NCBI GenBank assembly: GCA_947166705.1 | Contig: CAMVFE010000024.1 | Coordinates: 1 to 33,625, forward strand | DNA from: an uncultured Clostridia bacterium | Lineage (GTDB): Bacteria > Bacillota > Clostridia > Christensenellales > Aristaeellaceae | Length of the DNA: 33,625 nucleotides | Reading direction: 5' to 3' | Shown here: positions 3,370 to 9,137 of the stretch, one piece after another | Numbering within the stretch: position 1 is the stretch's first letter | Layout of the letters: the number at the start of each line of letters is the position of its first letter | The notes under the pieces: model-generated | Databases searched by the model: none | Seen by the model: only the letters and a program-made list of their open reading frames with translations | What the model was told of the DNA's origin: nothing | Position numbers and translations under genes: made by a program

Positions 3370-4077
3370 CTATTTCCGAAGGAGGAGCAGGAGAACCGCA
3401 AGGAGCGCGGCGAAACCGAGCAGCGAGACGCCGATGATCCGCAGCGGACGGGACGGGGGGACCGCTTCGGCGGCCTCCCCGTTTTCATGGGGTTCCTCCG
3501 CGTCCTCCTCCGCGGCGGCAGCGGCTTCCTCCACGGCGTAATCGGCTTCATCCGAAGCGTAATCGGCTTCTTCCATGGCGAAATCGGCTTCGTTCGCGGC
3601 GCTGAAGGCCGCCGCTTTCTTCGCAGAGAGGGCGGAAACCTCCGCGCCGCCCGCGGCCGGGGCTTCCGTCCGCGCCGCGCCGGAGAGCGCCGCCTGCGGG
3701 GAGAGGGAGTCCTCCGCGGCGGAGACGGCGGGGACTGCGTCAGTCCGGCCGGCGTCCGCGGAACCGGCGGATTCCGGCGCCGGGGTCCGGATCAGGGACA
3801 GGGAATCCCCTCCGAGAAGAACGCCGCCCAGGATGAAGAGGAAAACGGCGGCGGCGCTGAGCGCGCGGCGCCAGGGCCGGATACTCCGGGCGGAAACGCG
3901 GCGTGCGGGCTGGGGCGCGGTTTCCCGTTCCCGGCGCTTTTCGGCGGCGTCCGCCCGGACGGCTTCCCGCCATTTCTGCCGGACGGCTTCCGGCATCTCC
4001 GGAACCTCCCGGGACATGCGCTGAAGCTCGGAATCAAGGGCGGCCAGGGCGGGGTCCACGGATTCGTTTCTGCTCAT
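3370..4077 (-). CDS. Putative membrane anti-sigma factor with acidic heptad repeats
   Basis: The 235-residue product has a cytoplasmic N-terminal part (about 70 residues, Arg-rich towards its end), a membrane segment at about residues 70-90, an Ala/Glu-rich external region of about 120 residues and a second membrane segment near the C-terminus (about 212-233). The external part contains three consecutive seven-residue units of the form EADYAxE, visible in the DNA as a 21-bp repeat near 3525-3595. No HxxxCxxC zinc motif of ZAS anti-sigma factors is present. Its start codon overlaps the stop of the ECF sigma gene by four bases and GGAAAGGAGG precedes it, so it is translationally coupled to the sigma factor. 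The anti-sigma role is inferred from this arrangement and the topology, not from a recognised domain. Confidence 0.65.
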   Translation of the reverse strand: MSRNESVDPALAALDSELQRMSREVPEMPEAVRQKWREAVRADAAEKRRERETAPQPARRVSARSIRPWRRALSAAAVFLFILGGVLLGGDSLSLIRTPAPESAGSADAGRTDAVPAVSAAEDSLSPQAALSGAARTEAPAAGGAEVSALSAKKAAAFSAANEADFAMEEADYASDEADYAVEEAAAAAEEDAEEPHENGEAAEAVPPSRPLRIIGVSLLGFAALLAVLLLLLRK

Positions 4078-4709
4078 GGCCGGTTCCTCCTTTCCTGCCT
4101 GGTCCCCGGTGCCGGATGCCGGAACCGGGGTTCATGATCTTGGACGGCGCCGGGAGAAGAAAGTTCCCCGGACGGCCCGAAAAGCTGTTTCAGTTTTTCC
4201 CGCGCCCGGCTGACCCGGCTTTTGACCGTGCCGGGCGGGACGGAGAGAAGTCGGGCGGCCTCCTCGCAGGGCAGGCCCTCCAGCTGCGTCAGAACCAGGG
4301 CGTCCCGCTGCTCCTCCGGCAGGGCGGCGACGGCCGCCCGGAGCCGGGCGTGCTCATCGCGGCGGAGGGCCTCGCCCTCGGGCCCGGGCTTCGGATCGGG
4401 CGGGTCAAAGCCCTGCTCCGCCAGCGGTTCCAGGGAAAAATGCGCGTTCCGCTTTTCCCGGCGCAGGAAATCGAGGCAGCAGTTAGCCGCGACGCGGTAC
4501 GCCCAGGTTTCGAAGGCGCTGTCTGACCGGAAGGAATCCAAGCTGCGCCACAGCCGGAGCATGGTCTCCTGCACGCAGTCGGCGGCGTCCTCCCGATTGC
4601 CGGTATAATGCCAGCAGACACGCCAGACCAGGGGCTCCAGGCCCCCGACCAGCGCTTCAAAAGCCTCCGGATCTCCGGACCGGGCTCTCTGCAGCAGCAG
4701 CTCATCCAT
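4074..4709 (-). CDS. ECF-type RNA polymerase sigma factor (sigma-70 family)
   Basis: This 211-residue protein has sigma region 2 at about residues 10-85, including the DAADCVQETMLRLWRSL helix that contacts core polymerase and the -10 element. Sigma region 4 at about 125-180 carries LPEEQRDALVLTQLEGL and a helix-turn-helix ending GTVKSRVSRAREKLKQLF. It would direct RNA polymerase to a specific regulon in response to an envelope or other signal. A proline- and arginine-rich tail of about 30 residues follows region 4. GAGGAGG lies just before the start codon. A SigA-like promoter sits upstream, so expression does not obviously depend on itself. The anti-sigma candidate overlaps its 3' end. Confidence 0.92.
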   Translation of the reverse strand: MDELLLQRARSGDPEAFEALVGGLEPLVWRVCWHYTGNREDAADCVQETMLRLWRSLDSFRSDSAFETWAYRVAANCCLDFLRREKRNAHFSLEPLAEQGFDPPDPKPGPEGEALRRDEHARLRAAVAALPEEQRDALVLTQLEGLPCEEAARLLSVPPGTVKSRVSRAREKLKQLFGPSGELSSPGAVQDHEPRFRHPAPGTRQERRNRP

Positions 4710-4960: not shown

Positions 4961-5167
4961 ATGGATATGAAGAGAGGCAGAGCGGTTGAATTGTTCGTTT
5001 GAGGATAGAATTTGTTTATTTCATCAATGATTCATTCGTTCTGCCAGCTCAGATATAACAGGATACACCTGTCACCTTTGTACCGGCCCGGAAGGAATAC
5101 AGGGTCGTCATACTGCAAAAAATGTGACCGGACCGGTTTAATGAGCCGCTATTCGAAGGAGACGAAC

Positions 5168-7408
5168 ATGAAAAAACAGGTTTTTGTGTGGCTGACGATG
5201 CTGATGCTGCTGTTGACGCACGGGGTATATGCAGAGGTGAATCTGTCCGCGCTGCCGGGCAAAAACATCGGCGTGCAGACGGGCACTACCTTTGACAAAA
5301 TCGTGCTCGAAGCAATACCTGACGCGAAGATCAGCTATTTTAATACCAATTCGGATCTGGCGGCTGCTCTGGAAACACATAAGATCGATGCTTTCCCCTG
5401 CGACGAACCGGTTCTTCGCCTGATGATGGCGGAAAACGATCGGCTGGAGATCCTGGACAGGCGGCTGGACAACTTTGAATTTGCTTTCGTACAGCCCAAA
5501 ACCGCAGCCGGCGAAAAGCTGACGGGTGAACTGAACGCCTGGATCAGAAGCATGAAAGCCAGCGGCGAGCTGGACGAGATTCTGCGTAAGTGGACGGATG
5601 GGCCGGAAAGTGAAAAGACCATACCGGATTACCATTCCTTTCCCGCGGAAAACGGAACGCTGAAAATGGTCACGGAAGGCGCCTACGCCCCGATGGCCTA
5701 TTTCCGGGGCAATGAAATTGTAGGAATGGAAATCGATTTGGCGGCCCGGTTCTGCCAGGCCAACGGGTACGGCCTTACTGTGGAATCGTTGAATTTTGAC
5801 GGTATCCTGCCCACAATCCAGGCAGGCAAAGCGGATTTCGCTGCCGCCGGGATCAGCATAACAGAGGAACGCCGGGAAAGCGTTTATTTCTCCGACCCAT
5901 ACTACACGGGCGGCACGGTTCTTGCCGTGCTCAAGACGCAGACGGCGCCGACGAACGGCAGCTACACTTCTGTTGAGGAGCTGCGGCAGAAAAGGATCGG
6001 CATTCAAACCGGAACAAGCTTTGATCTGCTGATCCGCAACGCATTCCCCGACGCAAAGCCGTCCTACTACAACAATCAAAGCGATCTGCTGGCGGCCCTT
6101 ACCGCCGGGAAAATCGACGCTTTTCCATCGGACGAACCGGTTATACGGTATATTATCAATCAGGGGTATGCCGGTATTACTTATATCCCGGAATACATAG
6201 ACAGTTTCGATTTTGCGTACTGCTTTTCCAAAACAGATGATGGAGAAAGGCTGTGTGCAGAATTCAGCGAATTCATCAGTTCGCTGCAGGCAGACGGAAT
6301 GTTGAGCAAACTGAAGGAGAAGTGGTTCGGTGCGGATGAAACAGGCAAGCAAATCCCTGATTACCGCACATTTCCTGCTCCAAAAGGTACGCTGATCATG
6401 GCGACGGACGGCGACTATCCCCCCTTTGAATATGTCCGTAACGGCGAGGTGGTCGGTTACGACGTTGATATTGCCGCGCAATTCTGTGAGGCCTACGGCT
6501 ACGGGCTTCAGGTCCAGATCATGAATACGGACGCTGTACTGCCCGCAGTTCAGTCGGGAAAATGCGATTTTGTTGGTTCCGCGCTCACGATTACACCCGA
6601 ACGGGCGGAAAGCGTGCTGTTCTCCACACCAAACTATTCCGGCGGGGTGGTTTTGGTCGTACGGTCGAACACCGGAAACCAGGAGTCCACTTTCTGGTCC
6701 GGAATAAAGAGCAGCTTCGATAAAACCTTTATACGGGAAAAACGGTGGAGCCTTTTCCTGGAGGGCATCACAAACACGCTGCTGATCACAGTTATGTCCC
6801 TGCTCTCCGGCACTGCACTGGGCTTCGGAGTATTCATGCTGTGCCGGAACGGAAACCGCATCGCCAATGCGATCACACGTTTCTCTATGTGGCTGGTGCA
6901 GGGTACGCCCATGGTGGTGCTGCTGATGATCCTCTTCTATATCGTCTTCGGCAAGGCAGCGATCAGCAGCATCCTGGTGGCGGTGATCGGCTTTACCCTT
7001 ACCTTCGGGGCGTCAGTGTTCGGCCTGCTGAAGATGGGGGTCGGCGCGGTAGACAGCGGACAATACGAAGCGGCATATGCGCTGGGCTACCCGAACCGTC
7101 GGACATTCTTCACCATTATCCTGCCCCAGGCGCTGCCCCACGTACTGCCAGCCTACAAGGGTGAGATCGTGAGCCTGATCAAGGCCACCGCCATTGTGGG
7201 CTACATCGCCGTGCAGGACCTGACAAAGATGGGAGACATCGTGCGAAGCCGTACCTATGAGGCTTTCTTCCCGCTGATCGCGGTAACGGTGATTTACTTT
7301 GTGCTGGAGGCATTGCTGGGATTTGCGATAAACAGGATCGGGCTCAGTCTGGATCCCAGGCGCAGAAAGCCGGAAGATATCCTGAAGGGAGTAAAGACCG
7401 ATGATTAA
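5168..7408 (+). CDS. Polar amino acid ABC importer: multiple substrate-binding half-domains fused to permease
   Basis: The 746-residue protein has a signal/anchor segment (1-22) and no lipobox, then four half modules of the SBP_bac_3 fold. These are a C-terminal half (about 31-145, GVQTGTTFD...FPCDEP...KWTDG), an N-terminal half (162-255, GTLKMVTEGAYAP), a C-terminal half (275-388, GIQTGTSFD...FPSDEP...KWFG) and an N-terminal half (407-500, GTLIMATDGDYPPFEY). A HisM/GlnP-like permease domain follows (525-730) with the EAA loop EAAYALG...LPQALP near 634-657. The domain order is therefore C-N-C-N, not two intact N-C domains as in GlnPQ. The start at 5168 follows AAGGAG and begins the signal sequence. 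The ATPase gene overlaps by 8 bases. The substrate is probably a polar or charged amino acid, but it is not determinable here. GC content is lower than in neighbouring genes. Confidence 0.88.
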   Translation: MKKQVFVWLTMLMLLLTHGVYAEVNLSALPGKNIGVQTGTTFDKIVLEAIPDAKISYFNTNSDLAAALETHKIDAFPCDEPVLRLMMAENDRLEILDRRLDNFEFAFVQPKTAAGEKLTGELNAWIRSMKASGELDEILRKWTDGPESEKTIPDYHSFPAENGTLKMVTEGAYAPMAYFRGNEIVGMEIDLAARFCQANGYGLTVESLNFDGILPTIQAGKADFAAAGISITEERRESVYFSDPYYTGGTVLAVLKTQTAPTNGSYTSVEELRQKRIGIQTGTSFDLLIRNAFPDAKPSYYNNQSDLLAALTAGKIDAFPSDEPVIRYIINQGYAGITYIPEYIDSFDFAYCFSKTDDGERLCAEFSEFISSLQADGMLSKLKEKWFGADETGKQIPDYRTFPAPKGTLIMATDGDYPPFEYVRNGEVVGYDVDIAAQFCEAYGYGLQVQIMNTDAVLPAVQSGKCDFVGSALTITPERAESVLFSTPNYSGGVVLVVRSNTGNQESTFWSGIKSSFDKTFIREKRWSLFLEGITNTLLITVMSLLSGTALGFGVFMLCRNGNRIANAITRFSMWLVQGTPMVVLLMILFYIVFGKAAISSILVAVIGFTLTFGASVFGLLKMGVGAVDSGQYEAAYALGYPNRRTFFTIILPQALPHVLPAYKGEIVSLIKATAIVGYIAVQDLTKMGDIVRSRTYEAFFPLIAVTVIYFVLEALLGFAINRIGLSLDPRRRKPEDILKGVKTDD

Positions 7409-8495
7409 AATCGAACATCTGAAAAAAGAGTATTCCAACGTCACACCCCTGAAGGATATCAGTACGGAGATCCATGACGGCGATGTGATCTGCGTCATCG
7501 GGCCTTCCGGCACCGGTAAGAGTACGCTTTTGCGCTGTATCAACCAGCTTGAAAAGCCGACCTCCGGGAAGATCTGGGTGGACGGAGTGGAAATCACCGA
7601 CCCCGGATGCGATATAAACAAAGTGCGCCTGAAGATGGGCATGGTGTTCCAGCACTTTAATCTTTTCGGCCATAAAACGGTGATTGAGAACATCATGATG
7701 GCTCCCATGGACCTGCTGGGGAAGCCGAAACAGGAAGCCTACGATACCGGAATGAGGCTGCTGCGCACAGTGGGTCTGGCGGAAAAAGCGATGAACTACC
7801 CCGACGAGCTTTCCGGCGGCCAGAAACAGCGCATTGCCATTGCCCGCACCCTTGCCATGGATCCGGAAGTTATTTTGCTGGACGAGCCCACCAGCGCGCT
7901 TGATCCCACCATGGTGGGAGAAGTGCAGGCTGTTATCCGGGAACTGGCAAAAACCGGCAAAACCATGATGACTGTCACCCATGAGATGAACTTTGCCCGG
8001 GCCATCTCAAACCGGGTGTTCTATATGGATGAGGGCGTCATTTACGAGGAGGGCACGCCGGAACAGATTTTTGATCATCCCCAGAGGGAAAAAACCCGCC
8101 GGTTTGTCAACCGACTGAAGGTGCTGGAGCTGACGATTGAAAGCCGGGACTATGATTTCCTGGGCATGGCCGGAGAGATCGCGCAATACTGCAATAAGAG
8201 CCAGATTACACCCGTCCTGACGAACCGTATTCAGCTGGCCTTCGAGGAAAGCGTGAACCGACTGCTTATTCCTTCACTGAAAAACCCGCGAATCCAGGCT
8301 GTTGTTGAATACTCCGAGGAAGCAGAGAGCGCGGTATGGACGATCCGCTACGGCGGCCCCCGCTTTGACGCGCTGAAATCGGCGGACGACCTGGCTCTTT
8401 CGGTGCTGAAGGGCACGACTGAGGAAATGGCTTATTCGTGGACGGAAAACAATGAACTGCAAAACCAGCTGGTGGTGAAGATCAGAAACGCATAG
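7401..8495 (+). CDS. Polar amino acid ABC importer ATPase with C-terminal GHKL-like domain
   Basis: Residues 1-240 are a GlnQ/HisP-type ABC ATPase with Walker A GPSGTGKST (34-42), Q-loop Gln84, signature LSGGQ (137-141), Walker B VILLDE (157-162) and switch His194. It powers the permease encoded by the overlapping upstream gene. The family normally ends near residue 245, but this protein continues to 364. The extension resembles a SpoIIAB/RsbW-type histidine-kinase-like ATPase domain. It has an N-box-like FEESVNRLL (281-289, E-x3-N), a G1-like segment IRYGGPRFD (315-323) in which the usual Asp is Tyr, and a final strand NQLVVKI. The glycines of the nucleotide-binding boxes are largely lost, so it may be a regulatory pseudo-ATPase. 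No GTG or TTG start is needed; ATG at 7401 is translationally coupled. Confidence 0.9.
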   Translation: MIKIEHLKKEYSNVTPLKDISTEIHDGDVICVIGPSGTGKSTLLRCINQLEKPTSGKIWVDGVEITDPGCDINKVRLKMGMVFQHFNLFGHKTVIENIMMAPMDLLGKPKQEAYDTGMRLLRTVGLAEKAMNYPDELSGGQKQRIAIARTLAMDPEVILLDEPTSALDPTMVGEVQAVIRELAKTGKTMMTVTHEMNFARAISNRVFYMDEGVIYEEGTPEQIFDHPQREKTRRFVNRLKVLELTIESRDYDFLGMAGEIAQYCNKSQITPVLTNRIQLAFEESVNRLLIPSLKNPRIQAVVEYSEEAESAVWTIRYGGPRFDALKSADDLALSVLKGTTEEMAYSWTENNELQNQLVVKIRNA

Positions 8496-8586
8496 GACAA
8501 CTTATCCCGAACAAGGACAATGTCCCGAAGGTTATGGAATACTGCAGAAAAAGACAGATGTGATGGAATAATGATCATGTTTTTCA

Positions 8587-8641
8587 GCCTGCATGCAGGC
8601 GGATCCGGCAGAAGCAACAGACAGTTGCTTGCGCCGGATCC
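8587..8641. repeat. Strong inverted repeats after the importer operon
   Basis: A perfect 14-bp palindrome GCCTGCATGCAGGC (8587-8600) is directly followed by a hairpin (8601-8641). The hairpin has an outer stem GGATCCGGC/GCCGGATCC and an inner stem AAGCAAC/GTTGCTT around loop AGACA. No T run follows on the plus strand, so this is either an mRNA 3'-end structure or a protein-binding site, not a canonical terminator. Confidence 0.6.
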
Positions 8642-8690
8642 CTGCGCGGTTTATGATGTGGCTGAAAACAAACGACAGGGGGATTGAACC

Positions 8691-9137
8691 ATGGCAATGC
8701 GTGAGTTATTGAAGGATCTCAGGGAAAAGCATCATCTGACCCAGGAGGAACTGGCAAAGCGGGTGCTGGTGACGCGGCAGGCTGTCAGCCGGTGGGAGAC
8801 CGGAGAAACCCAGCCGAATATGGAAACACTGAAGCTGCTGAGCCGGGAATATAACGTATCGATCAATACCCTGCTGGGTTCCCCGAGACAGCTGTTCTGC
8901 CAGTGCTGCGGGATGCCGTTGAACGAAGATGAAAATATCAGCAGAGAACCGGACGGCTTCTTCAATGAGGATTACTGCAAATGGTGTTACGCTGATGGAA
9001 AGTATGCATACCCGACGAAGGACGCGCTGCTTGATTTCCTGATTGAGCACATGCCGAACCCCGAAGGACTGGATGTTGAAGAAAGACGCAGGCAGTATGA
9101 TGCATGGCTGTCAGAGCTAAAACACTGGAAACAATGA
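8691..9137 (+). CDS. XRE-family regulator with C-terminal zinc-ribbon
   Basis: The 148-residue protein has an N-terminal helix-turn-helix of the Cro/C1 type (residues 4-60, containing LTQEELAKRVLVTRQAVSRW). It is followed by a putative zinc ribbon, with CQCCGMPL around residue 66 and YCKWCYADG near 98 supplying two CxxC knuckles. A helical C-terminal tail follows. This matches the putative zinc-ribbon family that is often fused to XRE domains in Firmicutes. The start at 8691 follows AGGGGGA at a spacing of about eight bases; an in-frame ATG two codons later is a minor alternative. The ligand and targets are unknown. It lies in the same AT-richer block as the amino acid importer and may regulate it, but no operator was identified. 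Confidence 0.85.
   Translation: MAMRELLKDLREKHHLTQEELAKRVLVTRQAVSRWETGETQPNMETLKLLSREYNVSINTLLGSPRQLFCQCCGMPLNEDENISREPDGFFNEDYCKWCYADGKYAYPTKDALLDFLIEHMPNPEGLDVEERRRQYDAWLSELKHWKQ

Follow-up and report, generated by a model that had tools for sequence, protein, structure and literature searches.

A pseudo-GHKL domain of the RsbW/SpoIIAB type on a polar-amino-acid importer ATPase from an uncultured Clostridia bacterium, and its possible role as a partner-switching receiver

Why does a GlnQ/HisP-type ATPase of an uncultured Clostridia bacterium carry a second domain behind its ABC domain, and what may this domain do for the importer? The window, that is, the whole stretch of DNA analyzed (33,625 nucleotides), contains an ATPase gene of 364 aa, in which the ABC domain ends at approximately residue 240 and is followed by an extension of ~123 residues, in agreement with a preliminary description from the sequence alone that had found the protein longer than usual GlnQ/HisP ATPases. 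The features of the ATPase gene and its partner gene are as follows (basis in brackets).

5012 to 7408, + strand: partner gene, substrate-binding domains (SBP_bac_3) fused to a permease (ORF, Pfam, NCBIfam)
7401 to 8495, + strand: GlnQ/HisP-type ABC ATPase with C-terminal pseudo-GHKL domain, 364 aa (ORF; PF00005, E 3e-36)
7401 to 8117, + strand: ABC nucleotide-binding domain, residues 1-239 (Pfam, NCBIfam, alignment)
8106 to 8492, + strand: pseudo-GHKL domain, RsbW/SpoIIAB-type (profiles, AlphaFold2 model, structural matches)
8115 to 8198, + strand: b1 and a1, highly conserved stretch around IESRDYDF (secondary structure of the model, column counts)
8241 to 8267, + strand: N-box helix FEESVNRLL; E47 and E48 invariant, canonical Asn position (E48+4) occupied by Arg (alignments)
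8343 to 8369, + strand: G1 box IRYGGPRFD; Tyr in place of Asp, Gly and FD retained (alignments)
8370 to 8390, + strand: remnant of the ATP lid, 7 residues vs 20 in RsbW-type proteins (lid length comparison)
8391 to 8483, + strand: G2 region and a3-b4-b5 (LALSVLKGTTEEMAYSW ... NQLVVKI); G2 glycine replaced (alignment, model)

Since four extension-less GlnQ-type paralogues among the matches listed for the same genome had frames of 247, 249, 272, and 288 aa, the extension was genuine and confined to a part of these transporters. The Walker A, LSGGQ, Walker B, and H-loop residues were invariant columns in a 63-row alignment (the window and 62 relatives), and the catalytic motifs of the ABC domain were therefore intact; the full-length alignment did not include L135 or loci that lacked a full-length ORF. 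The best NCBIfam matches of the ATPase were TcyN and GlnQ, both below their equivalog cut-offs. The SBP-permease gene, for which the ATG at 5168 is the likely start, overlapped the ATPase gene by 8 nt, and in 62 of the 64 relative loci that were informative, such a gene was found directly upstream of, or fused to, the ATPase gene (another 11 loci did not extend far enough for a decision); separate permease and SBP genes occurred in divergent relatives such as L175. Most likely, two SBP-permease chains and two ATPase copies make up the transporter. Substrate-binding domains are also fused to the permease in GlnPQ-type importers, which share the combination of an SBP-permease chain with a GlnQ-type ATPase; these differ in that the ATPase here carries the extension, and in that all parts form one chain in some relatives, as in L088, where a single ORF of 1160 aa comprised the SBP, permease, and ABC domains and then the extension.

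The extension was found in 21 of 61 genomes, the bacterium's own included (E<=1e-3), and in 75 named loci. The named records were mostly MAGs, many of rumen or other gut origin by their titles, and were labeled Clostridia and Lachnospiraceae, with a few Treponema, Synergistaceae, Coriobacteriaceae, Atopobiaceae, and Chloroflexi; these odd taxa, being based on record titles, may include binning errors. A domain profile (A1) matched 17 of 293 genomes of the class and 13 of 398 genomes of the phylum (own genome included in both), counts that also take in MATE-linked and PP2C-linked domains. In the extension alignment of 74 rows (the window and 73 of the 75 named loci, all but L145 and the duplicate L117), E47 and E48 were identical in all 74, and a dN/dS of ~0.05-0.17 in four close pairs indicated that the extension was under purifying selection. 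Between L132 and L133, dS was 0.44 in the ABC part and 0.08 in the extension, suggesting recombination that exchanged the extension between transporters. The gene was split by a frameshift in L181 and contained an in-frame TAG in the ABC part in L016 (G008:C31), in each case through decay or assembly error. A stand-alone version of the domain was rejected, since both short frames examined were explained by a contig edge (L046) and by the frameshifted gene (L181), respectively.

The proposal that the extension resembles a SpoIIAB/RsbW domain was borne out, as a degenerate GHKL domain, by profile-profile comparison, by a HATPase_c_2 match in a homologue, and by structure prediction. The AlphaFold2 model of the extension (pLDDT 93.6) had the order b1-a1-a2-b2-b3-a3-b4-b5, and its best PDB matches in a structural search with VIA-align 2 were anti-sigma GHKL entries, among them SpoIIAB and RsbW in complex with partners, consistent with a GHKL fold of anti-sigma topology. 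Using hhalign, the extension scored 87-98.2% against RsbW-type sets and low (4.1-18.6%) against the SpoIIAB set, while the controls NIL, STAS, PP2C, and ABC halves remained below 1% and shuffles reached at most 5.2%. The value against a MATE-linked set (97.7-98.8%) was not independent because that set was found with the extension's own profile. PF13581 was matched by 13 of the 74 members at E<=1 (best E 0.0017) and was the commonest family among the matches listed; a DUF match in two of the 74 reached E 0.0013, below the best value for PF13581. The suggested check against HATPase_c_2 succeeded in part: L021, a divergent homologue from the same genus, passed with 29.9 bits (cut-off, 27.4), but the extension of the window protein matched no Pfam family at E<=10 and thus had no HATPase_c_2 gathering score. 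Direct searches of the extension against NCBIfam and PDB sequences gave no match, and the domain profiles A1 and A4 gave chance-level matches only against PDB sequences; homology therefore rests on profiles, bridging relatives, and structure. Of the other ABC accessory domains named beforehand as competing identities, the NIL/C2 domain was rejected at a profile probability of 0.2% (74 rows) and 0.5% (112 and 121 rows), NIL being the family name of the C2-type domain of MetN, and ACT and CBS were not found by Pfam scans, either for the extension at E<=10 or among the best 25 of 32 families across the members. The extension is almost certainly a pseudo-GHKL domain of the RsbW/SpoIIAB type.

Among 53 GHKL domains placed on a tree, all 27 linked to an ABC ATPase formed one clade (100/96). 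The C-terminal GHKL domains of MATE transporters were its sister group, and the RsbW and SpoIIAB rows were located on the other side of the midpoint root from both. MATE proteins with a C-terminal HATPase_c_2 domain were represented by L063 in the bacterium's own genome (contig C8; MatE plus HATPase_c_2), L137:9623-11380, and L116:9736-11529, and also by L055, L056, L057, L064, L065, and L068-L070. These MATE-linked domains resemble the extension in being its sisters and in their position at a transporter C-terminus (those of L116 and L137 also lie beside PP2C), but differ in mostly keeping the residues of the ATP site: the G1 Asp in 8 of 11, the N-box Asn in 7 of 11, and the G2 Gly in 10 of 11.

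How much of this site is left in the ABC-linked domains was estimated from 112 non-identical copies (121 rows minus nine duplicates), and 109 clusters at 90% gave the same residue picture; residues are numbered from the codon at 8106. The motifs IRYGGPRFD, LALSVLKGTTEEMAYSW, and NQLVVKI quoted in the preliminary description were present and aligned with FTDSGVPFD, LGIFLVKKTMDSVSYQY, and NQLTIRK, respectively, of L031, the genome's own RsbW-type protein. Its N box of the form E-x3-N needs correction: the N-box helix and an invariant Glu are there, but the true pair is E48-x3-R52, and N51, taken as the Asn, lies one residue early at a position that is Gln in 57 of the 74 rows. The survey of homologues likewise divided, since the N-box Glu and the preceding acid were kept in 112/112 copies but the Asn was aligned in 5/112 (Glu+4 was Asn in 6/112 on the raw sequence). 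The G1 Asp, described as replaced by Tyr, occurred in 0/112 copies (Tyr in 89, Trp in 7, Cys in 6, Phe in 5, and others in 5), while the G1 Gly was kept in 104/112; the G2 glycines, described as missing, are replaced here, and the G2 Gly was kept in only 18/112. The median length of the ATP-lid stretch was 7 residues in the ABC-linked domains vs 20 in RsbW-type and SpoIIAB proteins and 14 in MATE-linked domains. These residue counts and the lid length support the suggested loss of ATP binding as probable, and, because an aromatic residue so regularly takes the place of the G1 Asp, the adenine site may be plugged. The extension thus shares with RsbW, SpoIIAB, and UsfX (HATPase_c_2) the fold, the order of elements, the N-box Glu, the Gly and FD of G1, and the end strand, and differs from them in its fusion to an ABC ATPase and in the loss of the G1 Asp, the N-box Asn, the G2 glycine, and most of the lid. 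As judged from sequence, these features support the view that a GHKL anti-sigma kinase of the RsbW/SpoIIAB family became joined to the ATPase of a polar-amino-acid importer and that its descendant, the extension, is catalytically dead.

For the suggestion in the preliminary description that the domain could bind an STAS or sigma-like partner, the support is indirect and comes from partner-switching genes next to the ATPase genes of some relatives. A profile search revealed no PP2C, STAS, or RsbW gene in the 33.6 kb of the window, and RsbW-type and STAS matches were found together on another contig (C31) of the same genome, which also has STAS on C51. The ORFs of >=60 residues in the 75 named loci, 714,958 bases in all, were searched with profiles for PP2C, STAS, RsbW, and MATE-GHKL: 7 loci contained PP2C, 11 STAS (one of them weak: L125, 35 bits), 5 RsbW, and 4 MATE-GHKL. 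At least one of PP2C, STAS, and RsbW was present in 17 of the 75 loci (19 when MATE-GHKL was counted) and none in the DNA searched of the other 58, many of which were short and which differed in length. The genus-wide density (168 SpoIIE-type and 132 STAS matches in 41 genomes, ~109 Mb) predicted 1.1 PP2C and 0.86 STAS matches vs the 7 and 11 found, this density being that of one genus applied to other taxa. Directly downstream of the ATPase gene and on the same strand were PP2C and then STAS in L083, RsbW in L092 and its near-identical kin L131 as well as in L114, a STAS-phosphotransferase fusion in L093, and STAS in L016, which is a genus locus not among the 75. In L137 (Lachnospiraceae bacterium AD3010), the ABC gene was followed by one other ORF and then by a PP2C-STAS-MATE-GHKL run.

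Within the genus, PP2C or STAS was located near 34 extension genes more often than near 108 extension-less GlnQ genes: 2/34 vs 0/108 within 3 kb (p=0.056), 4/34 vs 1/108 within 6 kb (p=0.012), 5/34 vs 2/108 within 10 kb (Fisher p=0.009), and 8/34 vs 2/108 within 15 kb (p=1.7e-4). This test used 149 of the 168 PP2C matches, all 132 STAS matches, and the GlnQ genes among the matches listed; the extension of G352:C2 and G354:C5 was assigned from frame length, and 12 rows with long, merged, or partial frames (204-1007 aa) and undecided extension status were left out, one of which (G011:C27) had a STAS match 2.3 kb away. The statistics of both this test and the density comparison ignore relatedness, and the two are not independent because at least eight of the 75 loci are identical in contig or sequence to genus loci. 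When 63 full-length proteins were placed on a quick tree and the 15 with a partner gene or MATE-GHKL were marked, this label changed at least 12 times, and the association is therefore not one inherited neighborhood.

Several other arrangements were observed in these loci. The MATE-GHKL genes of L137 and L116 were located in runs with PP2C, and that of L137 also with STAS. A second SBP-permease gene directly followed RsbW in L092 (2871-5186) and L131 (6872-9187), placing the RsbW-type gene between two permease genes of the importer cluster. STAS was joined to an apparent APH-type phosphotransferase in L041 (own genome, C49), L102:4614-5828, L093:840-2102, and L105:1766-2917, as confirmed by Pfam for L102 and read from the sequence for the others, and an APH domain was fused to an RsbW-type HATPase_c_2 domain in L128:2399-3547 (Pfam).

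In RsbW systems, a STAS protein binds to the GHKL kinase once it is dephosphorylated by a PP2C phosphatase. Since the transporter most likely carries two ATPase copies, two pseudo-GHKL domains, one per copy, would hang under the ATPase dimer. With the fold kept and the ATP-binding residues and lid lost, binding without phosphorylation would be expected: the domain may still bind a STAS protein, as RsbW does, and so act as a receiver. A PP2C phosphatase would dephosphorylate STAS, which would then dock on the pseudo-GHKL pair and alter the activity of the ATPase and import, and a true RsbW kinase elsewhere in the genome would reset STAS. We assign a probability of roughly 45% to this reading, in which the pseudo-GHKL domain is a partner-switching receiver that controls the importer. 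A broader proposal is put forward tentatively, at somewhat less than even odds: PP2C/STAS/RsbW switches of gut and rumen bacteria may act on transporters, not sigma factors, through fused GHKL domains that are ATP-competent on MATE proteins and dead receivers on ABC ATPases.

Feedback control (trans-inhibition) is an unlikely but serious alternative, in which the pseudo-GHKL pair would use the former nucleotide pocket to bind the imported amino acid or another metabolite and would keep the ATPases apart, with no partner-switching protein involved. The aromatic residue that stands at the G1 Asp position in 101/112 copies would then reflect a pocket rebuilt in one consistent way, although the aromatic residue could equally plug it; the 58 loci without PP2C, STAS, or RsbW fit this alternative, which leaves the partner-switching genes around some relatives unexplained. 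C-terminal regulatory domains on importer ATPases, such as the C2 domain of MetN and that of ModC, are an established theme (PMC10710835), and the extension shares their position; MetN C2 acts under the ATPase dimer, where the pseudo-GHKL pair would sit (PMC10710835), but the extension differs from MetN C2 by its NIL profile value (0.2-0.5%).

A purely structural role, in which the GHKL fold only holds two ATPase subunits together or stabilizes the complex, is improbable: RsbW/SpoIIAB-type proteins form dimers and the N-terminal b1-a1 stretch is highly conserved, but extension-less GlnQ paralogues of the same genomes do without such a domain, and dimerization does not predict adjoining PP2C/STAS/RsbW genes. 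It is very improbable that the domain is still an active GHKL kinase or ATPase whose nucleotide pocket is unusual, since the invariant N-box Glu pair (112/112) and the intact fold of the model are outweighed by the G1 Asp in none, the aligned N-box Asn in 5, and the G2 glycine in 18 of the 112 copies, and by a lid cut from 20 to 7 residues.

For the reading as a partner-switching receiver, MlaF-MlaB of E. coli provides a precedent of STAS-type regulation of an ABC ATPase; in that system, the STAS protein binds to the ABC domain of the ATPase itself (PMC7367683), and the present case differs in that a GHKL domain is fused to the ATPase and the STAS partner is a putative one. In the titles and abstract starts of papers listed by full-text searches of the open-access PMC literature, no ABC or MATE transporter was described with a GHKL or RsbW-like domain, and, within that search, the combination of a known fold with a known position (C-terminal regulatory domain of an importer ATPase) was found to be undescribed. 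Partner switching is known mainly as a control of sigma factors. A dead anti-sigma kinase domain on importer ATPases, together with its MATE sisters and PP2C/STAS/RsbW neighbors, suggests that the switch may control transport directly and post-translationally, which would make GHKL a further plug-on regulatory domain of transporters, and provides a testable assignment for a domain that Pfam and NCBIfam do not recognize in the ATPase protein.

Divergent from the importer operon, the minus strand of the window (3370-4709) contained a gene for an ECF-type sigma factor (Sigma70 regions 2 and 4), followed by one for an Ala-rich protein that has no Pfam match and may contain a membrane segment. A link between the sigma factor gene (4074-4709) and the importer was rejected, with a weak match in one of the 75 relatives' loci (L096). 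In the near-identical relative L071, the ATPase gene was separated from the HTH/zinc-ribbon gene downstream of it by ~1.9 kb more DNA (L071:6384-8464 vs 8495-8691 of the window).
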